Shown: positions 4,618-47,438 of the stretch, piece after piece
Numbering within the stretch: the stretch's first letter is position 1
Layout: every line of letters begins with the position of its first letter
Source: an uncultured Opitutia bacterium
GTDB lineage: Bacteria > Verrucomicrobiota > Verrucomicrobiia > Opitutales > Opitutaceae
Assembly (NCBI GenBank): GCA_903840415.1
Contig: CAIMFY010000124.1
Location: forward strand, 1 to 47,690
DNA: 47,690 nt
Direction of reading: 5' to 3'
Program-made: the position numbers and the translations under genes
Notes under the pieces: generated by a model
The model's database searches: none
What the model saw: only the letters and a program-made list of their open reading frames with translations
What the model was told of the DNA's origin: nothing

Positions 4618-7600
4618 ATGCGCCCCACCCCAGCCGGATTCTTCGCGGCGCGATTGATGCATAGAGCCCTGAGTTTCGCATTTTTGCTTGGCACTCAGGT
4701 AACGGCGCAAGCGTCGGCACCGTCAAACGAACTTGGCCGCCCGCTCTCGCGGAATTTTCCGCCGGGCCGATCCAAAATCGCCCATCTCTGCCAAGCTGTA
4801 ACTCAAGATGCGGTTGGCTTCATCTACATCGCCAACGGCAACCAGATTCGCCGCTACGATGGCGCCACCTGGAAGTTGATTCCACTTCCGAATGAATCCG
4901 CGGGCGTCCGAAAATTCGCCGTCGCCGCAAACGGCACGGTCTACGCGGGCGGAGCCAGTGTGCTCGGCTATCTTCTCCCGGCGGGCGCGAACCACGACTA
5001 TGTTTCGCTCATCGACCAACTCGCTCCGGCCGATCGCAATTTCGACGATATCTACGACGTGCTCGCGGTCGGCAACGCGGTCTATTTCGCCACCGAGGAG
5101 AAAATTCTGATTTGGCGCGACCGGCATTTCACTGTGGTTCCCTGTCCCACTCCGCCACACTCTCGCGGTGCACGCCTCCACCGCGTCGGGGAAGCGGTCT
5201 ACGTCACTTCGCTCGATCACCCATTGTGCCGGCTCACGCATGACCGACTCGAAGTGGTCGCCGACGATCGGTTGCTGCGGCAAAATCAGATCGTCTCCGT
5301 CGAGGCGGGCGCGGCCGGCACACTCGTGCTGCTCACCGCCGGGCAAGGATTCTTTCAACTCACAGCCGGGCGTATCACGCCATGGCCGATCGACGCCAAT
5401 CGCTGGCTCGCCGGTAAAACTATTTTTCGCGCGCAACGCCTAGGCGACGGCTCGCTCGTCGTGGCGTTCACGTCCGTGAGCGGCGACGGCGGCATGCGCT
5501 TCGCTGCCGATGGGTACTATGTCGGCGCCCTCGATCAATCGATCGGTTTCTATGTCAAAACGCTCCGCGATTTTTTTTGCGATCGTGAGGGCGGTCTCTG
5601 GATCGGCACCGAGACGGGCGTCTTCCGACTCGAGTGGCCGTCCGCAGTGACGGTCTTCGACGTCATTAACGGTCTCGGTCAGGGCGTCGTAGCAGACGTC
5701 GCCCGGCACAACGGTGCGCTCTACGCCGCGACCGCTGAAGGCGTCTTTCGGCTTGTGCCGAGCGACGACCGCGACGGCAGCGCAGCGCATTTCGAACGCA
5801 TTTTCGGCGCCCCTGCTTTTTCGCTAGTGTCCCATCCCCGCGGTCTCCTGGTCCTGGGTTACGCCGATCTATTTGCGCAATCGCCGGGGGGTTTCACCTC
5901 GGTGGCCACGATTCCACCCGGCAGCGGACTCCTGCATCGATCGCGGCGCGATCCCGATCGCGTTTGGATCAGCACGGCCCACGGTATCCAATCCGTGCGG
6001 CACACGCCCCAAGGCTGGCGCGATGAGGGACTCGTGGCTGGCTTTGATGAAAACGCCCGCGAACTCGCCGAGGCCGCGGATGGCGCACTGTGGGCCGCGA
6101 CGTTCGACCACGGTTTGTTTCGTCTCGAATTTGGCGATGGTGACCGCGTTACTCGTGGCGCGCCTCGCATCGAGCGCTTCACCGGCAGCCATGGTTTCCC
6201 GGAGCAATTTCAGCGCGTCAGCACCGCGATCTGGGCCGGCGATCCGGTCATCGTAACCAATTCCACGGCACGGCCGCTGCGTTTCGACGTCGCGTCGCAC
6301 CGCTTCGTGCCGGTGGTTGGCACAGAATCGCTGCCGGCCGACGCCACCGACGACGGCTGGTTGCCCAGCGACAACAACGCCGAGAGCGAAGCCGACGCGC
6401 TGTGGTTGGCGAGCCCCACGAGCATCTACCAAGTGCCGCGTCAGGGTCTGCCCCGACGACTGCCGCGCCTGGTGAAAGAAGCTGCTGGCAAAGTCTCGCA
6501 GATGCGCGAGGAAACCTCCGCCGCGGGCACGGTGCTCTGGATTTGTGGCAGCAACTGCCTTGTGCGCGTCGACGTCGCGCACGCCTTTCCGTCAGCGGCG
6601 CCATTCATGACGTTGCTCACGACGGCCGATGTCCACGAAGGCGACCGTCTCGCTGCCGGGCGCACGGCACTCAAATTCGACTACGTCGCCCTGCGCCATC
6701 AACTCGCCGACTCCGTCGCCTACCAGACTCGGCTTGTCGGCTATGATCGGGACTGGTCGTCGTGGTCGGCCGAACGAGAGCGCGCGTTTACCGGCCTATC
6801 GGCTGGCGGCTACCAATTCGATGTTCGCGCCCGCGATGCCGATGGCCAGATCACCGCGCCCACGGCGCTCGCCTTTACGATTCTCCCACTCTGGTGGCAG
6901 ACGCCGTGGGTGTATTTTGGCGACACGATCGTGGGCATCATATTGATCGGCAGCGTCGTCTGGTTCCGCACCCGGGCATTGCACCGGCGCGCGGCCCGAC
7001 TCGAACTCGTCGTCGCCGAGCGCACCGCCGAACTCGCCCAGAAAAATACCGAACTCGTCCGCCTCAATCGCCTTGAGTTCGACGAAAAAGTCTCCGCCCG
7101 CCTCGCCGAGGAAAAGGCGCGCCTTGAGGTGCTTCGCTATCAGCTCAACCCGCATTTTCTCTTCAACACTCTCGCCTCGATCAGCGCCTCGCTCCCGGCC
7201 GGCCGCTCCACGGCGCGCGCAATGGTCGAGCGCCTCGCCGAATTCTGCCGCCTCACCCTCCACCGCGCCGACGATCGCGAGTGGACGACACTCTGCGAGG
7301 AGATGCGGCTCCTGCGCGCCTACCTCGAAATCGAGCAGTCCCGTTGGGGTGACCTGCTCGACATCGCGATTGACTGCCCGCCCGGGCTCGACAGCGAACG
7401 CCTCCCGCATTTTCTTCTGCTGCCGCTGGTGGAAAACGCGTTGAAATACGGCCGAGCCACCAGCCCCGACCGCGTTGGCCTGCGCCTCGCCGCCCGCCGC
7501 GAACCCGACGGCACGCTCGTCCTCGAAGTCGCCAACACCGGCGAGTGGGTCGACCCCGCGGCCAAGAAGACCGTCGCCTCGCTCGGCATCGGGCTCGACA

Positions 7601-7713
7601 ACCTGCGCGAACGGCTCGCCCGCTACTATCCGCGCGCCCACCAACTCGCGATTTCCCACACCGGCGGCTGGGTCAAGGTGGTCTTGCGCCTCCTCAACTC
7701 GCCCGCAGTGTAA
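4618..7713 (+). CDS. Propeller / Y_Y_Y sensor histidine kinase, LytS type
   Basis: This large membrane sensor has 1031 residues. The N-terminus is hydrophobic and exported; an internal ATG at 4657 would give a shorter signal peptide ending A-Q-A-S-A. Residues 50-670 show repeated two-component-regulator propeller units such as G-G-L-W-I-G-T-E-T-G-V-F. A Y_Y_Y beta-sandwich follows near residues 685-755, then one membrane helix at about 767-787 and a coiled linker. The kinase core is of the LytS / His_kinase class, with the motif Q-L-N-P-H-F-L-F-N-T, phospho-acceptor His846, and an N box L-P-L-V-E-N-A-L-K-Y-G. The topology places the propeller in the periplasm, where related proteins sense polysaccharide breakdown products. 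The ligand is unknown here. The LytTR regulator starts 7 bases after the stop and is the obvious partner. Confidence 0.92.
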   Translation: MRPTPAGFFAARLMHRALSFAFLLGTQVTAQASAPSNELGRPLSRNFPPGRSKIAHLCQAVTQDAVGFIYIANGNQIRRYDGATWKLIPLPNESAGVRKFAVAANGTVYAGGASVLGYLLPAGANHDYVSLIDQLAPADRNFDDIYDVLAVGNAVYFATEEKILIWRDRHFTVVPCPTPPHSRGARLHRVGEAVYVTSLDHPLCRLTHDRLEVVADDRLLRQNQIVSVEAGAAGTLVLLTAGQGFFQLTAGRITPWPIDANRWLAGKTIFRAQRLGDGSLVVAFTSVSGDGGMRFAADGYYVGALDQSIGFYVKTLRDFFCDREGGLWIGTETGVFRLEWPSAVTVFDVINGLGQGVVADVARHNGALYAATAEGVFRLVPSDDRDGSAAHFERIFGAPAFSLVSHPRGLLVLGYADLFAQSPGGFTSVATIPPGSGLLHRSRRDPDRVWISTAHGIQSVRHTPQGWRDEGLVAGFDENARELAEAADGALWAATFDHGLFRLEFGDGDRVTRGAPRIERFTGSHGFPEQFQRVSTAIWAGDPVIVTNSTARPLRFDVASHRFVPVVGTESLPADATDDGWLPSDNNAESEADALWLASPTSIYQVPRQGLPRRLPRLVKEAAGKVSQMREETSAAGTVLWICGSNCLVRVDVAHAFPSAAPFMTLLTTADVHEGDRLAAGRTALKFDYVALRHQLADSVAYQTRLVGYDRDWSSWSAERERAFTGLSAGGYQFDVRARDADGQITAPTALAFTILPLWWQTPWVYFGDTIVGIILIGSVVWFRTRALHRRAARLELVVAERTAELAQKNTELVRLNRLEFDEKVSARLAEEKARLEVLRYQLNPHFLFNTLASISASLPAGRSTARAMVERLAEFCRLTLHRADDREWTTLCEEMRLLRAYLEIEQSRWGDLLDIAIDCPPGLDSERLPHFLLLPLVENALKYGRATSPDRVGLRLAARREPDGTLVLEVANTGEWVDPAAKKTVASLGIGLDNLRERLARYYPRAHQLAISHTGGWVKVVLRLLNSPAV

Positions 7714-7720
7714 TCGCTCC

Positions 7721-8473
7721 ATGCCGCGGGCCCTGATCATCGAAGACGAAACCACCGCGCGCGCCGATCTGTGCGCCAAGCTCGCCGCGCATCCCGACAT
7801 AACCATCCTCGCCGAGGCCGCCACGCTGCGCAGCGCGCAGGCGCTCCTCGCGCGCACTGATTACGATCTCGTGTTTCTCGACATCCACCTCGTCGGTGGC
7901 AACGCCTTCGACCTCGTGCCAGATGTGCGCCCGGAGGCGCGCATCGTCTTCGTCACCGCCTACGACACCTACGCCCTGCGCGCCTTCGAGATCAACGCGC
8001 TCGACTACCTGCTCAAACCCGTCGCGCCCGCGCGCCTCGCTGAGGCGCTCCGCCGTCTCGCCGCTGCTCCCGCCACCAGCGCGGAGGCAACAGCCGAACT
8101 CCCACGCGGCCCCGCCCTGCGGCTCGACGACACCGTTTACCTCCGCTCCGGCCTGCGAGCGCGCTTCGCACCGGTCGCCGACATCAGCGTCATCGCCGCC
8201 CGCGACAATTATTCCGAAGTGCAACTCGCCAGCGGCACGAAAATCTTCCTGCGCAAGAGCCTCAAGGCGTGGGAGGACACGCTGCCCGCTACGCATTTCA
8301 TGCGCGTGCACCGCACGCAAATCGTGAACCTCGCGCGCGTCCTCCGCTACAAACGCGACCCGGACGAGCACACCCTGCTTTACCTCGAAGGCGCCGCCGA
8401 ACCCGTCTCTGCCAGCCGCGATCGCTGGAGCGATCTGCGCGAGCGACTAAGCGCGATCCGCCGCACGGCGTGA
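7721..8473 (+). CDS. LytTR-family response regulator
   Basis: The 250-residue regulator has a receiver at residues 1-120, with the acidic pair in I-E-D-E, phospho-acceptor Asp54 in F-L-D-I-H and the lysine in L-L-K-P-V. A LytTR DNA-binding domain occupies about residues 145-245, recognisable by R-D-N-Y-S-E-V and F-M-R-V-H-R-T-Q-I-V-N. LytTR regulators bind direct repeats at target promoters. The ATG at 7721 follows the kinase stop by 7 bases, so the two genes form one operon and presumably one two-component system. A strong hairpin follows at 8494-8518. The PEP-CTERM gene downstream is a possible target but nothing in the sequence proves it. Confidence 0.93.
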   Translation: MPRALIIEDETTARADLCAKLAAHPDITILAEAATLRSAQALLARTDYDLVFLDIHLVGGNAFDLVPDVRPEARIVFVTAYDTYALRAFEINALDYLLKPVAPARLAEALRRLAAAPATSAEATAELPRGPALRLDDTVYLRSGLRARFAPVADISVIAARDNYSEVQLASGTKIFLRKSLKAWEDTLPATHFMRVHRTQIVNLARVLRYKRDPDEHTLLYLEGAAEPVSASRDRWSDLRERLSAIRRTA

Positions 8474-39013: not shown

Positions 39014-40945
39014 TTACACCCCGGGCGGCTCGGGTTTCGGTTCTTCCGCGACCGGTGTGACCGGCGGCGGCGTAACCGTTTCCACCGGCACCTCGGCGGG
39101 CGCCGGCTCGACAGTCGCAGGCACGGTCGCGATCGGTGCGGGCGCCGGCGGAGCCACCTCGAAGGGCGGCGACGATGCCGGCACCTCGGGAAAATTCTCC
39201 GGATCGTGTTCCTCGCCTTCGACCTCTTTCTTGCGCGCCTCTGCCATTGGCGGCGGGGCGAAGAGACGACCGTCAATAAACTCGGTCACATAGCCCTCGT
39301 GAACGAGCCACATCAGGTCGCCCTGCAGACGGGCGATTTTTGCGCGTTCCTCGACGCTGAGTTTGGGTTCCTCCGGAACCGGCAGGCCCGCGATGGCTGG
39401 CAGCGCCGGCACATGCAGCGCGATGCCGAGCAATTTGGTCGGCAGTTCGCTGGCCCGGATCATCGGGTGCGTCTCAATAAACGAGATCAGCGAACCGATG
39501 CTGTCGGAGAACATCTGGCCGGGCACGCGGAACTTCCGCTTCACGGCGCACACGTAGCTGACGCCCTTCGAGCCCTTCTTGAAAATCGTGAAGTGCTCGC
39601 GGCGCAGCCGGCCGCGCAATGCGTTGGCGGTGTCGAGCGGGAACTTGCGCTGGCGTTCTAGCGCCCCCTCGATCGCGCGGCGGATTTCACCGGGCGGCAT
39701 CGTCTCAGCGACGCTGCCGTGGAAACGGGCGTTCTCCGCCGGTCGGACCACCTTGTCGCGGGCATGCGTGAGCAGATAAATCCGGGCTTCTTCGAGCGAA
39801 TCGAAAGTCGGAGTCTCCGGAACGGCGACCGGCGCGGGCGTCGGCTCCGCTGCGGCAACTGCGGCGGTTTCGCTCACGGGCGTTTCGGCGGCGGGTGTCT
39901 CCGCGGGAGTCGGCTCGGCGGTGGCAGCCACAACGGGCGCCACGACAGGCTTGGCTCCAGTCGGCAGTTTCCACGTGTAGCGCGTGGTCTTCTTCATCTT
40001 GTCCAGCCACTGCTTCACGACCTCCGGATCGCGGATCGTCTCGATGCGGCTGCGAAAGGCCTCGAACGCCATCCGGGCGACCTTCGCTGCATGGTGCTGC
40101 TGCACAATCTGGGTGTAGCGATGGTAGTTCGGCGGCCCGAGCAATTCGCCCGTGACGCCGCATTTGTTGATCACCTGGAAATTTCCCTTCGGGGGCTCTA
40201 CCTCGACCTCGGCGGTGTCGAAAAACACTCCGAGATGCTTCGACAGCACGTGCGCCACGGCCGCCTCATCACTCTCAAACGGCAAATGATCGGGCACTGA
40301 AATGTAGAACGGCGCTTTCGCGGGACGCGCCGCGACCTCGCCACCCGGCGCGGGTGCACCTGACTCCACCGGTGTCTTGCGGGTGACGACAACGACGAAC
40401 CGCTCCGTCTTCGCGACCACCGTCCGCGCAATTTCGAAAAGCTCGATGGTGCGGCACGACTTCCGGATCGTCTGCACGAGCGTGTTAAAGCTCGTGTCCT
40501 CGGGATAAAACGTCGCAGCGAAAAACGGACTCTCATACGGGCCGCGATCGAACGATTCGCTGCGACCGCCATACCGCGGTCCACCGCGATAATCGCCGCC
40601 ACCACCAGGACCATCCTCTCGGCGCGGCCGCGGGCCCCCAGAGAACTCCCGGCGCTCGGGCGCGCCACCAGCCGAAGCCGGAGCGCCGCTCGGACCCTCG
40701 CCACCGGGACCAGCCGGCCGGCGGAACGGCCGACGATCGCGCGCTTGGGGCGCACCACCGCCACCAGGTCCGCCACGACGATCGTCGCGCCGTGGGCGGT
40801 CGCCACCGGATTCACCGGAGTGTCGATCGGCCGCGGCCGATTTGTCCTGGGTCCATTGCGTGCCGAAGCTGAAGCCTTGAAGCTGGCTCAGATCGAGTTT
40901 GTTGAAATCCGCGGGCGGATTCTCCTGAGGAGGTTGGTCGTCCAT
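39014..40945 (-). CDS. Large protein with RG-rich N-terminus, function unknown
   Basis: The 643-residue protein has no signal peptide. After a short motif L-S-Q-L-Q-G-F-S-F-G-T-Q-W near residue 20 comes a stretch of about 100 residues rich in Arg, Gly and Pro (R-R-D-D-R-R-G-G-P-G-G-G-G type repeats), like RNA-binding RGG regions. The middle (about 135-320) and a second block (about 390-560, with K-V-V-R-P and R-F-H-G-S-V) look folded. Ala/Pro/Glu-rich linkers separate and end them. I know of no named domain. An RNA-associated role is a reasonable guess from composition only. I chose ATG 40945 because the longer frame has a different composition. Confidence 0.75.
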   Translation of the reverse strand: MDDQPPQENPPADFNKLDLSQLQGFSFGTQWTQDKSAAADRHSGESGGDRPRRDDRRGGPGGGGAPQARDRRPFRRPAGPGGEGPSGAPASAGGAPERREFSGGPRPRREDGPGGGGDYRGGPRYGGRSESFDRGPYESPFFAATFYPEDTSFNTLVQTIRKSCRTIELFEIARTVVAKTERFVVVVTRKTPVESGAPAPGGEVAARPAKAPFYISVPDHLPFESDEAAVAHVLSKHLGVFFDTAEVEVEPPKGNFQVINKCGVTGELLGPPNYHRYTQIVQQHHAAKVARMAFEAFRSRIETIRDPEVVKQWLDKMKKTTRYTWKLPTGAKPVVAPVVAATAEPTPAETPAAETPVSETAAVAAAEPTPAPVAVPETPTFDSLEEARIYLLTHARDKVVRPAENARFHGSVAETMPPGEIRRAIEGALERQRKFPLDTANALRGRLRREHFTIFKKGSKGVSYVCAVKRKFRVPGQMFSDSIGSLISFIETHPMIRASELPTKLLGIALHVPALPAIAGLPVPEEPKLSVEERAKIARLQGDLMWLVHEGYVTEFIDGRLFAPPPMAEARKKEVEGEEHDPENFPEVPASSPPFEVAPPAPAPIATVPATVEPAPAEVPVETVTPPPVTPVAEEPKPEPPGV

Positions 40946-41074
40946 GTAGTCCGGAAGCGGGCGTGAGCCCGCGGGTGTTGGCGTGGTGAAACGCTGCCGT
41001 TCGCAGTTGCCGCGGAGTGTCCCGGGACACCGCGGGAGTGGCAAGCAGTTTCCCACCACCCTGCCGGCCACTGT

Positions 41075-41833
41075 TCAAACTGCCACTAATGGCTGGATGT
41101 CGCCCCCGCTCGCCGTCGCTGGATGATGCCTGCCGCGCACATGAAAGGAAAACACCGTGAGGCCTTCCCGTGATCGCACCCGCAATATCGAGCCGTGGCT
41201 GCGCACGCACCGACGAGCAATGTAGAGCCCGATTCCAGTGCTCCCAATTTTAGGTGCGGTCTTCCCTTCCGACGTCAACTCAAACAGATAGGGTTGATGA
41301 TCGACTGGAATGCCCGGCCCGCCATTGGCGACCAACAGGTGCCAGTTGTCACCTGCCGCTCGCACCAGTCGCACCCGCACCCACGAGCCGCGGGAATACG
41401 CCACCGCGTTGCCGATTAAGTTGACGAGCGCATGCCGCATCAGCAGCGGCGAATACAGCACCGGCACCACCGCTGGGAGATCGAGCGCAATCGGGGCGCC
41501 CGCCGGCCAGACGCCCGGCTCTCGCACGAGCGCCGTGATAAACGCCGCCAGATCACCGTGCGCGAAATCCTTCGCCCCGTCGCGTGTCAAAAATAGCTGG
41601 CGCATCCCCGCGAACAGTTCGTTCATGCGTTTTACGCCGCCCTGCAAATCGCGCAGGCTTTGAGACCGCACGGCGTCGTTACGCGTCGTCGCCAGAATGG
41701 TCGTGCACATCGAGACTTGGCACAGGACGTTGGCCAGATCGTGTTGTAGAATCCCTGGAAGGAGCGCGCGTTCTTCCGAAAGATTGCGCTCCTCTTCCAG
41801 CGCCACAAAGAGCGCCTCTTCAAGCCGCGACAT
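41075..41833 (-). CDS. Soluble sensor histidine kinase in the YcaO operon
   Basis: The 252-residue kinase has no membrane segment and no separate sensor domain. The H box is L-Q-H-D-L-A-N-V with His31. The N box is N-L-I-G-N-A-V-A-Y-S, the G1 box A-N-G-G-P-G-I-P (Asn where Asp is usual), and the G2 box G-S-T-G-I-G-L-Y-I-A. Its input must come from a partner protein. ATG 41833 overlaps the end of the 80-residue gene by 14 bases, so they are coupled. No response regulator follows it directly. The NarL-type regulator at 46791 and the receiver of the hybrid kinase at 43205 are the nearest candidates. Confidence 0.88.
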   Translation of the reverse strand: MSRLEEALFVALEEERNLSEERALLPGILQHDLANVLCQVSMCTTILATTRNDAVRSQSLRDLQGGVKRMNELFAGMRQLFLTRDGAKDFAHGDLAAFITALVREPGVWPAGAPIALDLPAVVPVLYSPLLMRHALVNLIGNAVAYSRGSWVRVRLVRAAGDNWHLLVANGGPGIPVDHQPYLFELTSEGKTAPKIGSTGIGLYIARRCVRSHGSILRVRSREGLTVFSFHVRGRHHPATASGGDIQPLVAV

Positions 41834-42062
41834 GGTTGGTCTGAGGGACAAAACGATAGGTGCCGGTCACCCCCCACTCCATCGCCGCGATGGCCTCGGC
41901 GACCATGGCCGGTGAGCCTTGTCGCACGGCGAGCATCACTTCAACGCCTTCACGCGCGCCAATTTTTTCTCCGTTAATCGCTGCGCGCAGCGCGCTCAGC
42001 GCCGCCGCGCGATTGCCTTGGGCGACACAATCACGGATTTGGGCGAGGCCTGCGGTGGACAT
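41820..42062 (-). CDS. 80-residue helical protein between ycaO-like and kinase genes
   Basis: The frame starts at ATG 42062, 4 bases after the stop of the YcaO-like gene, and overlaps the kinase start. The product is Ala-rich and helical for about 60 residues (A-L-S-A-L-R-A-A-I-N-G-E and M-V-A-E-A-I-A-A-M-E-W-G), then ends in a short aromatic tail with T-G-T-Y-R-F-V-P-Q. There is no signal peptide and one cysteine. I recognise no family. It could be an adaptor passing a signal to the sensor-less kinase, or a substrate of the YcaO-like enzyme. Neither is shown by the sequence. Confidence 0.7.
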   Translation of the reverse strand: MSTAGLAQIRDCVAQGNRAAALSALRAAINGEKIGAREGVEVMLAVRQGSPAMVAEAIAAMEWGVTGTYRFVPQTNHVAA

Positions 42063-42066
42063 GAGG

Positions 42067-42951
42067 TTACCAGAAAAAACAGGATGATTTCGGATCGAGA
42101 TATTCGCGCGACGGCATCGCCGGGACGACGCGCCACACGGTGGCATATTTCGACCACGGGCCCGGCAGTTCGCCGTCAAACAGCACCGACCACGCCGCCT
42201 CGCGGTGCGGCTTGCGATCGAAGACGCGGCGGAGAAATTCCGCGTGCCCTTCCTCGCCGGCAAAGTAGAGGCAACGCCGCTCGAAGCAATTGGGCACGTC
42301 GCGCACCACGCTGCGGAGCTTGTAGTAGCCGACGACGAATTCGTTGCGCGCTAGTTCGACCGCGGCCCGCGCCGCCGCCGAGCGAAACGTCGTGCCCGCC
42401 GAGTAACCGTAGCTCACATGCCCCGCCGCCGAGCGGCGAAACAAGATCGCGACCTCGCCGATCTTGGCGGAATGCTCGAGCCGTAGCGCCGTCACGCCGA
42501 GCATCGCATCGCCCACGACCGACGCCCGCAAATGGCCCGACCACCATGAGACGAGCGCCCAGCGCTCCAGCGCCTCAAGGTAGGCGTTTTTGCGCGCCTG
42601 CGATTTGAAGAACCCGGGAAACGCGGCCATGCCGTTGGTCGAGTTGTCGACGTCGAACCCATAGCTGGCCGCAGCGTCGCCCTGGGATAATTCGTAGAAC
42701 GCCCAGCGCTCCAGCGCCTCCGAGATCGCCATGTATCGCGCGACTTGGGCGGAGCCGCTGGCGCCGGTGCCATCGGCATTGCCATACACACTGAGTGGCA
42801 GCTTGCCGCGGATGAGTCCCGGGGCAAGATACGCGTTAGCCTGATGCGCCTGCTTCCCCAACACATCGATCGACCCCGACGAGACCCGATCAATCGGACC
42901 ACCGTCGCTCGTGAACACGTCACGGTAGTTAATCGCTGCGAGGCTGAACAT
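42067..42951 (-). CDS. Compact YcaO-like protein
   Basis: The 294-residue cytosolic protein shows the YcaO pattern. A glycine-rich lead-in (G-T-G-A-S-G near 61) runs into A-I-S-E-A-L-E-R-W with Glu78 and Glu81, then N-S-T-N-G-M-A-A near 103, and Y-L-E-A-L-E-R-W-A-L-V-S-W-W with Glu126 and Glu129. In YcaO enzymes these glutamates hold ATP and magnesium, and the enzyme activates a peptide amide to form azolines, thioamides or amidines. It is shorter than most YcaO proteins (about 400 or more). It lacks a proline-rich tail and ends S-C-F-F-W. No E1-like or TfuA partner is nearby. A 56-residue exported peptide lies 18 bases upstream. Confidence 0.75.
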   Translation of the reverse strand: MFSLAAINYRDVFTSDGGPIDRVSSGSIDVLGKQAHQANAYLAPGLIRGKLPLSVYGNADGTGASGSAQVARYMAISEALERWAFYELSQGDAAASYGFDVDNSTNGMAAFPGFFKSQARKNAYLEALERWALVSWWSGHLRASVVGDAMLGVTALRLEHSAKIGEVAILFRRSAAGHVSYGYSAGTTFRSAAARAAVELARNEFVVGYYKLRSVVRDVPNCFERRCLYFAGEEGHAEFLRRVFDRKPHREAAWSVLFDGELPGPWSKYATVWRVVPAMPSREYLDPKSSCFFW

Positions 42952-42969
42952 GGCGCGGATGGTTTGGGA

Positions 42970-43140
42970 TTAGTTATTTTCGATTACGACACAGGGCATC
43001 GCGGGACCATCCATGATCGTGTCCGGCAACGAAGCATTCTTGCGGGATTGGTTGTCGAACTTTTCGGCGGCGCGGGCGGCTCCTACAGCGAGCAACATCG
43101 TCGAAACGATGGCGAAGAATAGGGATGTGGATTTTTTCAT
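42970..43140 (-). CDS. 56-residue peptide with signal sequence, upstream of YcaO-like gene
   Basis: A frame starts at ATG 43140 with K-K-S-T-S, a hydrophobic core and a signal-peptidase site after A-A-R-A at residue 24. The remaining 32 residues are polar (A-E-K-F-D-N-Q-S-R-K-N-A at the start) and end M-P-C-V-V-I-E-N-N with one cysteine at 50. The textbook signal peptide in so short a frame makes it a likely real gene. It is first in the operon, 18 bases before the YcaO-like gene. It could be the substrate of that enzyme or an exported signal. Nothing in it matches a known precursor family. Confidence 0.7.
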   Translation of the reverse strand: MKKSTSLFFAIVSTMLLAVGAARAAEKFDNQSRKNASLPDTIMDGPAMPCVVIENN

Positions 43141-43204: not shown

Positions 43205-46200
43205 ATGCACTACCTTTTAAGAGGTATCCGACTACTGTTTTGGTGGTCCGCACTGCTGGCCCCACTCGCGGCCGCGCCGCTCGTGTCGAGCCCTCCGCAC
43301 GTTCTCTTTGCCAGTCCGCAGCTCAAAGGAGAGACTTACATTTGGCAAATCGCCGAGACGCCAGAGCATCAATTCATCGCCTCCGGCGAGCAGATCATTT
43401 TCTACGAAGACGGCCGGTGGACCGCGGTGAATGGAGTGCGCAAGGCGGCGATTCGTTGCCTGCTGGTCGATGGGGCAACGTTGTGGATCGCCTCACCCGG
43501 CCAAGTGGGAAGACTTCATCTACCGCTGCGGGCAGACAGTCGCTACGAGCCCGTCGAAATCGCCGGTCTGTCAGAAGCGGGCGAGGTGTGGCACCTCGCC
43601 AAATCGGGCGATGCGATCGTCGCGACGACAAAAGACGACGTCTGGTTTTATCATCCGGCGACCAAGCAAACGACCCGCACTCACCTGCCCACTCGGGGAC
43701 ATCTCATTGTGCAATCGTTCGGTCAGGAAACCCTCGTGCTCCAATTTGGCACCGCCTTATGGAAAATGGCGGGGGACAAGTTGGAGCCGTTCGACAATCC
43801 GTTGCCCGACAAATCCGACGTAAAATGGGGTTTGGCGACCTCCTCGTTTGTCCTGACCGCCAAGGCGCTTTATCAAACGACACCGGAGGGCTTCCGGCCA
43901 GTGATTGCCACGTCAGCCCTCAAGGCTCCATCGGAAGCCCTTTCTGCGCTCTGTCAGTGGGAAGATTCCGTGGTGGTCGGAAGTGCCTCGCGTGGCCTCG
44001 CGCTTTTGGTGCCCAAGACCGGCGAACTGCATTTTCTGAATCGCGAGGTGGGACTCCCCAGTCTGGCCATCTGCTGTCTCTTCCCGGATACCCGCGGGCG
44101 GCTTTGGGTCGGCACGAGCCAAGGAATCGCGCTGTTTGAGTCTCAAAAATTTGGCCAGCAAAACGCGGATGCCAATGCCCCGCGTTTTGCCGCCAGCCAT
44201 CAAGGACTTTTCGTCAGCCACGAAGATTCAGCCATTTTCTACCATGACGATGGCCGGGAAGAGACGATCCCGCAAAAAGTCTATGAGTTCATTTCCTTCC
44301 GCTCGGGTTACGCGCTCGGGTTTTGGGATAAAATCCAGGTGGCGGCCAAAACTATTCCAGTTCCCGGCGGCCGTATCGGCGCCAGCATCGAACTGCCCGG
44401 CGGCCAACTCCTCGTGACCGCCGTTCAGAACGTTTATCTCGTGGATCCTGTCAGCGGTGAATCCGCGCCCGTTGCCGCGCCGCAAACCGAATTCACCGGT
44501 CTCACCGTCATCGGAGAATCTCTCTGGGGCGCCGGTCTCAACGGCTCGCTTTACCGCTCGCCCGTCACGCCGCCGCTCGCGTTTGCCCACGTCTCGGATC
44601 TGGGAGGCACCAGTGCGACCCAACTCGCTCACCTCGGTACCATCCTTGTCACCGCGTCGAATTCTGGTGTGCGTTTCGGCGAGCACTTGCGATCGGTCGG
44701 CGGCACGCGCAATCTGCATAATCCGCATCTCGCGGAAAACGCCGACGGCGTCTGGCTCCTTGGCGAACAGGATGGTGCGCACCGACTCGGCCGGCTCGCG
44801 CTCGCCGGCGACGCGATCGAATGGCAGACCGTCGAGGCCAAGGGCCTGAGTCTCCTGGCCGACCCGCACTCGCTCAACGCTAGCGGTCACACGTTGCTCA
44901 TCTGTGGCGAAAATCAGATTCTCTCGCTCAACAGCGATCAGTTGCCGCGCGCTTACCGGCTCGACGCGCCGCGGCTCAGTTTTACATTCGCCGACTCGGC
45001 GACCGGCATCAACTCCACGATCGATCATCCGCCCGCTAAGCTGTCCGCCGAAAGGAATGGTATCACATTCACCGGCACGCTGGCGTTCGATGAGTTCGGC
45101 GAGCGACCCGGTTTCGAGCGCCGCCTACTGCCCACCGAGACCGCGTGGATTCCCACCCAGGCCGGCGAAAAAATCAGCTATCCCTCGCTCTCGCCGCGCG
45201 ACTACACGCTCGAAGTCCGCGCGACTCACCTCGGCCACACCGGCCCGGCGACCGCGCAGACGTTCACCGTGCTCCCGCCGTGGTATGCCTCGCCGATCGC
45301 GCTGGCCGGCTATGGCGCGCTCGCGTTGCTGGCGTCCTATTCGATCTTCCGCTTCCGCACCCTCCAGATTCGCCGGCGCAATCTCGAACTCGAACGCCTC
45401 GTCGAGCATCGCACCCACGAACTCGCTCAGGCCAGCGCCGCCAAAACCGAATTCCTCGCGTCGATGTCCCACGAGATTCGCAACCCGATGAACGGCGTGA
45501 TCGGCCTCGTGAATATTTTGCGCGACGAACCGCTCGGGCCGCGGCAGGCCCACACCTTGAAGATGCTTCACGGCTGCGCCGAGCAGCTCCGCACCACGGT
45601 CGACGACATCCTCGACTTCTCGAAAATCGAAGCCGGTCGCATTGAGCTCGAACGCACCACCTTCGATTTGCTCGACACTCTGGAAGCCTCCGCCGCCACC
45701 ATCGATCCCGGTGGCACGAAAATCCGTTTCACCGACAAACCCCCGCCGCACCTGTCGCTCCTCGGCGATGCCGGCAAGTTCCGGCAAATTTTTGCCAACT
45801 ACGCCAGCAACGCCCTCAAATACGGCCTTCCGCCCGAGGCGCGAGTCGCCACGATCCTGGTTCCCACCGACGACGGCGTGCGGCTCACGCTCAGCGTCAC
45901 GAGCTCCGGCCCGACGATCGACAAGGACACGCTCGATCAGTTTTTCGAGAGCTTCACGCGCGGCGCCGATGCGATGGAGCGCAACATCCACGGCACTGGC
46001 CTCGGCCTCGCGATTTGCCGGCGTTACGCGCAGGCGATGGGTGGCGAAGTCGGCGCCGTCAGCACGAACGGCGAGACGACGTTCTATCTCAACCTGCCCT
46101 TCGCCCGCGCCCGCGCCGGCGCCGCCGCCCCCGCGCCCCCGATCCCCGCCGCCGAACGATCGGTGTTGCCGGCCCGCGCGCTCGCCATCGAGGACGAGGA

Positions 46201-46822
46201 TTACAACCGCATCGTGCTCGGCAGCATCCTCGCGAAGATGAATTACTCCGTCGACTGGGCAACCACCGGCGCCGAGGCGCTGAAGCTCGCGCAGGAAAAC
46301 GGCTACGACATCGTCCTCACCGATTACCGGCTGCCCGACACCAACGGCGTCGACCTCGCGCGAGAAATTCTCCGCCTCTGCCCCGAGCCGAAGCCCGCGG
46401 TCTTCGCCGTCACGGCCTACTCGACGCGCGAACGGCGCGAGGAATGCCTGCGCGCCGGCATGGCCGGTTTCATCAGCAAACCGATCACGCTCGAAAAACT
46501 CCGCACCACCCTCGCCGGCTGGGGCGACAAACGACTCACCACGATTTCCCTCGAAGCGAGCCACCGCCCGCTGCCGTTGCAGCCACCCGCGGCGATCGAG
46601 TCGGGCTGGGCCGAGTTAAAGCGAGCCGCGATGCTCGACACCAAGCGCGCCGCTACTCTCGCGCACCGACTCAACAACGTGTGCCGCGCATTTCATTATC
46701 TCGATCTGGCCGAGCAGCTCGAGTTGCTCGAAGGTGCACTGGAGCGCGACGAACCCGCCGCACCATTTCTCCAAGCCTGCGAACGTCTGCTCAGGCCGAG
46801 TTCAGACGATCTACCGTCGTGA
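43205..46822 (+). CDS. Hybrid propeller sensor kinase with receiver and Hpt-like tail
   Basis: The 1205-residue protein begins with a signal peptide ending L-A-A-A-P. Residues 30-600 are two-component propeller-like repeats (for example G-R-L-W-V-G-T-S-Q-G-I-A), then a Y_Y_Y-like domain and a membrane helix near 697-715. The kinase core has S-M-S-H-E-I-R-N-P-M-N-G with His756, a weak G1 box (S-S-G-P-T-I) and a good G2 box (H-G-T-G-L-G-L-A-I). A receiver follows with Asp1040 in L-T-D-Y-R. The tail resembles an Hpt domain, with L-A-H-R-L-N-N-V and His1154. It is divergent from the YcaO operon. The design places the ligand-binding part in the periplasm. Its end overlaps the convergent NarL-type gene by 32 bases. 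Confidence 0.92.
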   Translation: MHYLLRGIRLLFWWSALLAPLAAAPLVSSPPHVLFASPQLKGETYIWQIAETPEHQFIASGEQIIFYEDGRWTAVNGVRKAAIRCLLVDGATLWIASPGQVGRLHLPLRADSRYEPVEIAGLSEAGEVWHLAKSGDAIVATTKDDVWFYHPATKQTTRTHLPTRGHLIVQSFGQETLVLQFGTALWKMAGDKLEPFDNPLPDKSDVKWGLATSSFVLTAKALYQTTPEGFRPVIATSALKAPSEALSALCQWEDSVVVGSASRGLALLVPKTGELHFLNREVGLPSLAICCLFPDTRGRLWVGTSQGIALFESQKFGQQNADANAPRFAASHQGLFVSHEDSAIFYHDDGREETIPQKVYEFISFRSGYALGFWDKIQVAAKTIPVPGGRIGASIELPGGQLLVTAVQNVYLVDPVSGESAPVAAPQTEFTGLTVIGESLWGAGLNGSLYRSPVTPPLAFAHVSDLGGTSATQLAHLGTILVTASNSGVRFGEHLRSVGGTRNLHNPHLAENADGVWLLGEQDGAHRLGRLALAGDAIEWQTVEAKGLSLLADPHSLNASGHTLLICGENQILSLNSDQLPRAYRLDAPRLSFTFADSATGINSTIDHPPAKLSAERNGITFTGTLAFDEFGERPGFERRLLPTETAWIPTQAGEKISYPSLSPRDYTLEVRATHLGHTGPATAQTFTVLPPWYASPIALAGYGALALLASYSIFRFRTLQIRRRNLELERLVEHRTHELAQASAAKTEFLASMSHEIRNPMNGVIGLVNILRDEPLGPRQAHTLKMLHGCAEQLRTTVDDILDFSKIEAGRIELERTTFDLLDTLEASAATIDPGGTKIRFTDKPPPHLSLLGDAGKFRQIFANYASNALKYGLPPEARVATILVPTDDGVRLTLSVTSSGPTIDKDTLDQFFESFTRGADAMERNIHGTGLGLAICRRYAQAMGGEVGAVSTNGETTFYLNLPFARARAGAAAPAPPIPAAERSVLPARALAIEDEDYNRIVLGSILAKMNYSVDWATTGAEALKLAQENGYDIVLTDYRLPDTNGVDLAREILRLCPEPKPAVFAVTAYSTRERREECLRAGMAGFISKPITLEKLRTTLAGWGDKRLTTISLEASHRPLPLQPPAAIESGWAELKRAAMLDTKRAATLAHRLNNVCRAFHYLDLAEQLELLEGALERDEPAAPFLQACERLLRPSSDDLPS

Positions 46823-47438
46823 AACCCATTTTAAGAGCGTAGGTTTGCAGTTCCTGGGCGGTGTGCAGGTTGAGTTTCGCCATGATGTTGCGCCGGTGCG
46901 TCTGCGCCGTGGCCGCGCCCAGGCCGAGTTCGGCCGCGGCCTCGACGTCGGTGCTGCCGGAGCCAATGAGGCGCAAGAATTCCTGTTCGCGCGGCGAGAG
47001 CAGCTTGTCGAAACTCGTCTGGTCGCGCGCCAACCGCCCGCGCCGCTCGACGAAACGCGGGCTGAAAAATGCCCCACCGGCCGCCACCGTCTGAATCGCG
47101 GTCAGCAAGACTTTCGGCTCCTCCTCCTTGTGCACGAAACCTTGCACGAATGCGCGGCTCACGCGATGAACGATGTAGTCTTCGCAGGAACCGGAAATCA
47201 GCAGCACCGGGGTGGGCACGTGCGCTTTGGAAAGTTCATCCACAAAATCGATGCCGTCGCCATCAGGCAGCCGGATATCGAGCAGGATCACGTCTGCCTG
47301 TTGCAGCAGGGGAAAGTTGGCGCGCAACTCCGCCAGCGTGCCGGTTTCTAGCACGATCTTGCCCTTGCAATCCTCGATCAGGAGTCGCCGGATCAGGCCG
47401 CGGAACATTACCTGGTCTTCCACCAAGACGAACTTCAT
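46791..47438 (-). CDS. NarL/FixJ-type response regulator
   Basis: The 215-residue regulator has a receiver with the acidic pair in V-E-D-Q, phospho-acceptor Asp54 in L-L-D-I-R-L-P-D and the lysine in V-H-K-E. A LuxR-type helix-turn-helix lies at about 148-205 (L-S-P-R-E-Q-E-F-L-R-L-I, then A-A-A-E-L-G-L, then T-A-Q-T-H-R-R-N-I-M-A-K-L). It overlaps the end of the hybrid kinase tail to tail, so it is probably the output of that phosphorelay, possibly via the Hpt-like His1154. The 252 bases upstream hold a leader hairpin (GCAGGT/ACCTGC, 47554-47574) and the tRNA-like fragments, with no clear promoter. Confidence 0.93.
   Translation of the reverse strand: MKFVLVEDQVMFRGLIRRLLIEDCKGKIVLETGTLAELRANFPLLQQADVILLDIRLPDGDGIDFVDELSKAHVPTPVLLISGSCEDYIVHRVSRAFVQGFVHKEEEPKVLLTAIQTVAAGGAFFSPRFVERRGRLARDQTSFDKLLSPREQEFLRLIGSGSTDVEAAAELGLGAATAQTHRRNIMAKLNLHTAQELQTYALKMGFTTVDRLNSA

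Follow-up and report, generated by a model that had tools for sequence, protein, structure and literature searches.

The locus considered here lies in a 47,690-nucleotide stretch of contig CAIMFY010000124.1 from an uncultured Opitutia bacterium, the whole of which is called the window below, and encompasses a small gene for an exported peptide, a compact enzyme of the YcaO family, a large hybrid histidine kinase and a response regulator of the NarL type. On the minus strand the peptide gene is followed by those for the YcaO enzyme, an 80-residue protein and a soluble histidine kinase, with gaps of 18 and 4 bases and one 14-base overlap, and the hybrid kinase starts 64 bases from the peptide gene on the opposite strand. 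The original prediction had described the four minus-strand genes as an operon in which a YcaO-like enzyme might modify peptides and the soluble kinase might provide a link to signalling. The genes were found where it had placed them, spacing included, and each has homologues in relatives. It had overlooked the 1205-residue hybrid kinase, the regulator beyond it and a palindrome at positions 43,211 to 43,226. Loci, genomes and contigs used for comparison carry labels beginning with L, G and C, respectively. The features of the window are as follows.

42,970 to 43,140, minus strand: precursor peptide, 56 residues, with a signal/leader at residues 1-24 (43,069 to 43,140), followed by a conserved A-E-K-F-D segment and a C-terminal core region
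42,973 to 43,014, minus strand: presumed core, residues 43-56 (MDGPAMPCVVIENN), positioned from the tandem cores of L118, L080, L120 and L083
42,067 to 42,951, minus strand: compact stand-alone YcaO, 294 residues, with Glu78, Glu81, Glu126 and Glu129 conserved and an aromatic C-terminus (FFW)
41,820 to 42,062, minus strand: 80-residue protein of no known family, a lineage-specific accessory (6 of 76 loci with room, window included)
41,075 to 41,833, minus strand: soluble histidine kinase without a sensor domain, 252 residues from its ATG, a lineage-specific accessory (14 of 72 loci with room, window included)
43,205 to 46,822, plus strand: hybrid histidine kinase, 1205 residues, with a two-propeller plus Y_Y_Y-type periplasmic sensor, HisKA (His756), HATPase, receiver (Asp1040) and C-terminal His1154
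46,791 to 47,438, minus strand: NarL/FixJ-type response regulator, 215 residues, with receiver Asp54 and a GerE/LuxR helix-turn-helix, convergent with the hybrid kinase
43,211 to 43,226, no strand: palindrome TACCTTTTAAGAGGTA, a NarL-like 7-2-7 operator candidate

The unit that is conserved across relatives consists of the exported peptide, the compact YcaO, the divergent propeller hybrid kinase and the convergent NarL-type regulator. The YcaO protein is found in 18 of 57 genomes and in 14 of 387 genomes of the phylum, the window's own included in both, and all 14 belong to the same order; in a collection of 84,980 species it occurs at 112 places. The window and the best 80 of these 112 relatives make up the census of 81 loci. 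The titles of the best 80 of the 112 give Verrucomicrobiota lineages (Opitutaceae, Opitutia, Opitutales and the like) or genera, which we take to belong to the Opitutales, and that of L072 reads just "bacterium". In counts that are partly circular, because the window and genomes represented among the 80 loci contributed to the 12, 12 and 14 sequences behind the hidden Markov models of kinase, regulator and peptide, respectively, the hybrid kinase is encoded divergently from the peptide in 70 of the 72 loci with more than 1.5 kb upstream (it is missing in L057 and L072), the regulator is present in 52 of the 57 loci with more than 5.4 kb, and the peptide is recognized by profile (E of 0.21 or better) in 70 of the 75 with more than 450 bases. 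The regulator is not at its usual place in L072, L078, L089, L113 and L115, and in L113 and L115 it is located 3' of YcaO.

The other two minus-strand genes, searched for with profiles of their own whose seeds likewise overlap the counted loci, are accessories of the window's clade. Of 72 loci with room, 14 have a soluble kinase after YcaO that scores above 100 bits, two further weak matches, in L081 and L105, having been left out of the count, and the 80-residue gene comes after YcaO in 6 of 76. Both are absent from the same-genus relative L023/L042. The four-gene neighbourhood was looked for in Verrucomicrobiota relatives, and the set of peptide, YcaO, hybrid kinase and regulator was found to be conserved instead. 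Clustering of 1077 open reading frames around the 81 loci, called with a simple script rather than a trained gene caller, yielded no fifth family throughout, and no transporter, immunity or metal gene recurring throughout. When one shared flanking gene at 45% identity or more is used to join them, the 56 loci that have sufficient flank make up 17 groups, 14 of which are single loci, and when two shared genes are required they make up 36; these groups are not proof of independent contexts, because the flanks are short. A looser grouping of flank contexts, which placed 52 of 64 loci in one group, was superseded by the stricter one.

The window enzyme is, by its modelled structure, a YcaO protein, as the original prediction had proposed. 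An AlphaFold2 model made from 40 aligned homologues has a mean confidence (pLDDT) of 90.4, and in a VIA-align comparison its top 13 rows are all YcaO enzymes, with Z scores of 17.3 to 12.3 over 234 to 269 residues, the next row, unrelated, having a score of 5.8. The best of these is chain D of microcin B17 synthetase (6gos, Z 17.3, root-mean-square deviation 4.0, 260 residues aligned); others include the Methanopyrus kandleri YcaO with AMPPCP-Mg (6cib, 16.6), a heterocyclase (4v1v, 16.4), a YcaO peptidase (7u58, 15.2), the Methanocaldococcus jannaschii YcaO (6peu, 14.8) and the Escherichia coli YcaO (4q85, 12.8). Five of the top titles read microcin synthetase or heterocyclase, which we take to be YcaO proteins. 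The fold was seen by VIA-align alone: a YcaO sequence profile gave no match at E of 10 or better in the PDB, and Foldseek gave none at E of 0.001 or better and no YcaO among the 50 matches listed, its top rows (dsRBD, LeuA and ribosomal proteins) being judged chance. The Pfam YcaO family (PF02624) scores 23.8 bits with the window protein, against a curated cut-off of 25.7, and reaches 34, 27.8 and 25.8 bits in the relatives L118, L067 and L070.

The four glutamates that had been put forward as an ATP/magnesium site, Glu78, Glu81, Glu126 and Glu129, are kept in 77, 76, 76 and 75 of 77 aligned homologues, and Arg130 is kept in 75. A local hhalign alignment with E. coli YcaO (E of 3.3e-4, with a probability of only 38.5) places Glu126, Glu129 and Arg130 on Glu199, Glu202 and Arg203, which presumably bind magnesium and ATP in that enzyme. 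The fold would bring the glutamates together in space, and the window YcaO is most likely active. The absence of a TfuA gene, pointed out in the original prediction, extends to the wider comparison, as TfuA (PF07812) is found in none of the 57 genomes, the positive control having matched in Methanosarcina acetivorans; no E1-like/Ocin-ThiF or dehydrogenase partner, also said to be lacking, recurs in the clustering around the 81 loci, for which no profile of these families was run. As regards an MNIO (DUF692) or PME partner, the adjoining enzyme is YcaO and no other partner is found throughout the loci, again with no MNIO profile run.

The precursor peptides, of which 77 were gathered from 73 loci, have a common design, with a signal/leader, a conserved A-A-(D/E)-x-(L/F/I)-D segment and a variable C-terminus. 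A signal-like start is general among them when judged by hydrophobicity and a lenient test of residues -3 and -1 rather than by SignalP: a hydrophobic 12-mer is present in 69 of the 77, Lys or Arg within residues 2-10 in 71, and 72 pass the lenient test. A cysteine after residue 22 is found in 72, the pair PC in 50 and CxxPC in 25. The core MDGP(A/G)(M/L)PC is common to the window, L042 and L048.

Several relatives carry tandem cores. The precursor of L118 has five copies of SAFSELPCQFS, that of L080 three of AFTETVCNF, that of L120 three of DTCTWPCE and that of L083 two of ACTAACH, with codons differing in 9 of 11, 6 of 9, 5 of 8 and 5 of 7 columns, respectively; columns were counted within the stretch that is identical between copies, and neighbouring residues vary (S, N or V before AFTETVCNF). 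The precursor of L078 has two copies of AWEQPPGVPP(C/R)PGGGIIIK. Since the codons differ where the residues are identical, the copies are old enough for change at the DNA level with the peptide kept, as expected if each copy were to yield the same small product. A short precursor with a conserved leader and a variable core, encoded beside a modifying enzyme, is the arrangement by which ribosomally synthesized and post-translationally modified peptides (RiPPs) are recognized, and it is present here. The view that this is not a classical RiPP cluster holds, and the multi-core precursors favour a RiPP-like product more than could be seen from the window alone.

The pairing of peptide and YcaO, also part of the original prediction, is borne out both by the loci and by co-occurrence. 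With a query in which at least 5 of 18 rows come from the genomes searched, the peptide profile matches 16 of the 57 genomes, the window's own included, all within the 18 that have YcaO and none among the 39 that do not, and at each of the 19 places a YcaO match is no more than about 0.5 kb away. The two YcaO genomes lacking a match, G011 and G034, both have other precursor types. L057 has two peptide matches 0.7-0.9 kb upstream instead of at the usual place.

Some loci harbor additional peptide genes. In L057, L058 and L059 there are two of them before YcaO, and the one closer to it lacks the C-terminal Cys core seen elsewhere; this second type is the only one on the short contig of L061. In L060 a second peptide gene of 41 residues, with the same leader and hardly any core, lies about 0.1 kb after the YcaO stop.

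The hybrid kinase resembles in its sensor a group of proteins from Bacteroides. The sensor region of 681 residues was modelled at a pLDDT of 92.1, and the top 15 Foldseek rows are the Bacteroides hybrid two-component sensors BT4673, BT4663, which senses heparin, and BT3049; in VIA-align, BT3049 has a Z score of 23.4 over 634 residues, with single propellers nearly as high. Pfam finds Reg_prop, HisKA, HATPase_c and Response_reg in this kinase, HATPase_c in the soluble one, both PF00072 and PF00196 above cut-off in the regulator, and no family for the 56-residue peptide or the 80-residue protein; Musclin, RcpC and similar weak matches in the window and its relatives were judged chance. The kinase His756 is kept in 63 of 63 sequences, the receiver Asp1040 in 62 of 63 and the C-terminal His1154 in 61 of 63, while the regulator Asp54 is kept in 57 of 57. 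By its position only, His1154 is a candidate Hpt-like residue, and no Hpt family was matched. With the phosphorelay residues so conserved, a His-Asp-His-Asp relay through the kinase to the regulator is plausible. The sensor is far less conserved than the kinase part, with median distances of 0.78 and 0.58, respectively. The proposed link to signalling is upheld by these genes, although the conserved partner is the divergent propeller hybrid kinase with its NarL-type regulator and not the soluble kinase.

The window palindrome stands 86 bases upstream of the ATG of the peptide gene, in a position where it shares sequence with the first codons of the annotated kinase reading frame. Across the loci, the pattern TACC-N8-GGTA has 27 sites in the 13,800 bases upstream of 69 peptides, as against 9 in 1,099,702 bases elsewhere in the same loci, and mononucleotide shuffles gave 0.05 loci with the pattern on average. 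Perfect 7-2-7 inverted repeats are found in 17 of the 69 upstream regions, compared with a mean of 2.0 (maximum 6, 30 draws) in random stretches. Relative to the start of the peptide, most of the exact sites fall near -64 or -87, a spacing of 22 bases, and some at -93 to -138; in several other loci the best palindrome has different letters, for instance CACC...GGTG near -107. NarL itself favours 7-2-7 sites, and the available part of one report gives an engineered site that reads TACCCCTAAAGGGGTA (PMC4549865). It is likely that the linked regulator acts at the candidate palindrome.

The window has a single site and not the paired 22-base form, which is found in 3 of the 57 genomes, at the module promoter in G001 and G010 and elsewhere in G024, with none for the reversed-pattern control. 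A looser pattern adds one site in the window genome, near a HipA-like gene (assigned by eye), with none for the control. With two mismatches allowed, TACCTTTTAAAAGGTA is present at the own promoter alone in G000 and G001 and at the own promoter plus one more place in G024, and is absent from G010, G004, G016 and G014, the controls giving 0 to 2 matches per genome and strand.

G024 also contains five perfect TACCGGAATTCCGGTA palindromes outside the module (L178, L180, L181 and L182), and its second system uses this palindrome. By eye, their neighbours include a PAS kinase, a CheW-like gene, an oxidase-like gene and exported proteins. On contig C104 the flanks of two neighbouring sites, one perfect and the other altered at one base, coincide over some 20 bases, for which reason the extra palindromes may in part reflect a dispersed repeat and not a regulon. 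A triple array of the window-type palindrome with 22-base spacing (L181, positions 7587 to 7925, contig C103) stands before about 280 bases without a convincing open reading frame, a stretch that ends in a terminator-like hairpin, has a fold z-score of -2.8 and may be a regulatory RNA; in the 57 genomes this candidate transcript is not conserved beyond the operator, short matches at E of about 1e-4 being judged chance.

From the computed gene content, linkage, YcaO fold, active-site residues, multi-core precursors, co-occurrence and enriched palindrome, we infer a scheme of modification, maturation, ligand and output. In the precursor made from the short gene, a Sec-type signal/leader would be followed by one core or several at the C-terminus, and the compact YcaO would use ATP to modify the core backbone, or its Cys, Ser or Thr residues, before export. 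The product would exit through the general export route, because no dedicated transporter recurs throughout the loci, and would then be trimmed by proteases. The hybrid kinase, with its propeller sensor, His, Asp and C-terminal His, would hand phosphate to the NarL-type regulator, which would control the peptide-YcaO operon by binding to the 7-2-7 palindrome that lies between the divergent transcription units. In the leading reading, the matured peptide would itself be read by the sensor, closing an autoinducing pheromone loop. As a whole, the explanation of the locus as a self-contained peptide system of the Opitutales, Sec-exported, YcaO-modified and multi-core, with a dedicated phosphorelay and a pheromone loop, is given a probability of roughly 0.45. 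Its steps differ in strength: modification of the precursor by YcaO before Sec export is distinctly probable, while the chances that the matured peptide is the ligand of the hybrid kinase appear even.

The pheromone step is suggested by the adjacency of the genes, by the different cores of two systems within one genome (L118 and L080; L048 and L077), and by correlations of core distance with sensor and YcaO distances. In Mantel tests on 51 loci, which do not handle the tree properly and in which sensor distances are near saturation (median 0.78), core distance correlates after controls with YcaO distance (r=0.215, p=0.0005) and with sensor distance (r=0.13, p=0.01), and shows no correlation with kinase or regulator distance. 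Co-variation may thus be said to have weak Mantel support.

A number of observations weigh against the explanation as a whole or against its pheromone step. Core and sensor show no significant correlation when YcaO alone is controlled (r=0.07, p=0.16), and the sensor is more strongly correlated with the leader (r=0.37) than with the core. Two Coraliomargarita systems, L115 and L116, carry nearly the same core, which counts against private channels. L072 keeps the peptide and YcaO without the hybrid kinase or the regulator. Precursors of other types are carried by L062, L078 and L094 (AYEQ/AWEQ...IIIR/K, PIPPPDDGDIIIR), none is clearly recognized in L113, the second YcaO copy of G023 (contig C163) is without a peptide-profile match, and 5 of the 77 peptides have no cysteine after residue 22. 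L094 comes from Opitutaceae bacterium EW11, L113 from Cerasicoccus arenae, and L115 and L116 from Coraliomargarita sp. SDUM461004, strains with records that carry no metagenome-assembly mark. As to the operator, the exact TACC-N8-GGTA is found in only 24 of the 69 loci (the window and 23 others), mostly in two clades plus L119 and L120. The strict pattern TACCTNNNNNNAGGTA has a single match in the window genome, at this locus (43,211 to 43,226), and the reversed control likewise has one match in that genome; no regulon was found there, an outcome that would suit a peptide that is the output equally well. Finally, a glycan ligand for the sensor is quite possible by analogy, because the solved structures nearest to it are those of Bacteroides sensors, one of which senses heparin.

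By eye, the neighbours of L072 include periplasmic-binding and transport-like genes.

The observations against the pheromone loop lead to a reading that stands close behind it and is itself tentative, in which the peptide would be an effector, that is, a YcaO-modified exported RiPP that binds metal, kills competitors or acts on the envelope, and the sensor would read something else, such as a glycan. The sensor model matches BT4663, BT4673 and BT3049 over nearly its whole length, no regulon outside the peptide promoter came to light in the window genome, which would suit a peptide that is the output, and the frequent PC and CxxPC motifs are compatible with metal or redox chemistry; the accessible part of one report offers bufferins as a precedent for Sec-exported Cys-containing RiPPs (PMC12452194). 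An effector is harder to square with loci throughout which no transporter, immunity or metal gene recurs, and with the diversity of the cores, which are unlike each other where one genome has two systems, L115 and L116 excepted. The correlation of core and sensor distances, weak as it is, and the five extra perfect palindromes of the second system in G024, outside the module, likewise count against this reading.

It is also conceivable, though unlikely, that YcaO acts on another protein or is a regulatory ATP-binding protein, and that the exported peptide is an unmodified pheromone or a sensor cofactor. Other proteins have been linked with YcaO, ribosomal protein S12 in E. coli and McrA in archaea. 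The enzyme is a single compact domain, no partner family accompanies it throughout the loci, and the core residues are so variable that no substrate residue is universal; moreover, Sec-exported precursors are rare for RiPPs in what is available of PMC12452194. Set against this are the co-occurrence and adjacency of peptide and YcaO, the nearly invariant catalytic residues, the tracking of YcaO distance by core distance after controls and, from the accessible text of PMC8442711, the precedent of streptamidine, in which a stand-alone YcaO is found beside a small precursor. That the four minus-strand genes form the working unit, the 80-residue protein serving as partner or further substrate and the soluble kinase delivering the signalling output, is suggested by their tight spacing on one strand and by the retention of the two extra genes in close relatives. 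This is nevertheless very improbable, and as a conserved unit the operon is ruled out by the census, given how few loci have either gene and that L023/L042 has neither.

The pheromone loop, as the preferred explanation, may be set beside systems already described. Stand-alone YcaO proteins with adjacent precursors are reported for the streptamidine/amidine family of Actinobacteria in the available text of PMC8442711, as is the amidine-forming ItfB of Bacteroidales in that of PMC10352776. In common with these, the YcaO here is unfused to other domains and is encoded beside a short precursor, with no recurring partner and no TfuA; it differs from them in the Sec-type signal, the tandem cores of some species and the dedicated hybrid kinase and NarL-type regulator. 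The main text of PMC8442711 nowhere uses the terms histidine kinase, two-component or signal peptide. According to the accessible part of PMC12452194, few bacterial RiPP precursors have Sec signals, and bufferins are the only ones for which such signals have been demonstrated by experiment in the natural host. Bufferins and other MNIO RiPPs, as described there, share the Cys-containing precursors with N-terminal Sec signals encoded just before the modifying enzyme, whereas the enzyme here is YcaO and not an MNIO.

The Bacteroides hybrid two-component systems (BT4663, BT4673 and BT3049) have the same two-propeller plus Y_Y_Y-type periplasmic sensor on a hybrid histidine kinase. They carry an AraC-type DNA-binding domain, whereas the Pfam scan of the window kinase finds none, the output here being a C-terminal His and a separate NarL-type regulator, with a peptide-YcaO operon linked to them. 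The peptide-pheromone loci agr and ComQXPA of the Firmicutes bring together a precursor, a processing enzyme, a receptor kinase and a response regulator. The present locus likewise contains precursor, enzyme, kinase and regulator, together with a candidate autoregulatory site; it differs in its Verrucomicrobiota host, in having YcaO in place of AgrB or a prenyltransferase, in its Sec-type leader and propeller receptor, and in a ligand that is so far presumed. Judged by the clustering, the Pfam scans and the adjoining enzyme, the locus falls outside the definitions of linear azol(in)e-containing peptides, YcaO-TfuA, bufferin-type and single-protein hybrid two-component systems, and its regulator has the receiver and helix-turn-helix of the NarL/FixJ family.

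In the open-access literature searched, which excludes most subscription papers, no earlier description of a peptide-YcaO-kinase locus was found, and the available parts of PMC7298704, PMC8939145 and PMC10885120 describe no such locus. The enzyme family and kinase type are known, and we rate the combination and the precursor design, as they appear from the sequences, as new; the system would be categorically new only if the pheromone step is true. The locus looks like an undescribed way for Opitutales to make, and perhaps to hear, a chemical signal. We would suggest, tentatively and as somewhat less than an even chance, a new class of cell-cell signal, a Sec-exported, YcaO-modified, multi-core pheromone with its own two-propeller kinase and NarL-type regulator, and with two systems of different cores in some genomes. 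If so, YcaO chemistry, Sec-type multi-core export and a dedicated phosphorelay with a glycan-type sensor would be joined in a way not found combined in the literature searched, providing a candidate peptide-signalling system for the Opitutales. These bacteria are common in soil and freshwater. The system is directly testable, since exact masses and synthetic peptides can be derived from the cores and a promoter reporter from the palindrome. It would also raise the issue of how a cytoplasmic YcaO acts before Sec takes the precursor, which PMC12452194, in its accessible part, asks for bufferins.

Beyond the soluble kinase, the minus strand of the window encodes at 39,014 to 41,071 a protein of 685 residues with a Gly/Arg-rich N-terminal part and no convincing Pfam match, which is also found downstream in close relatives at 70-75% identity.

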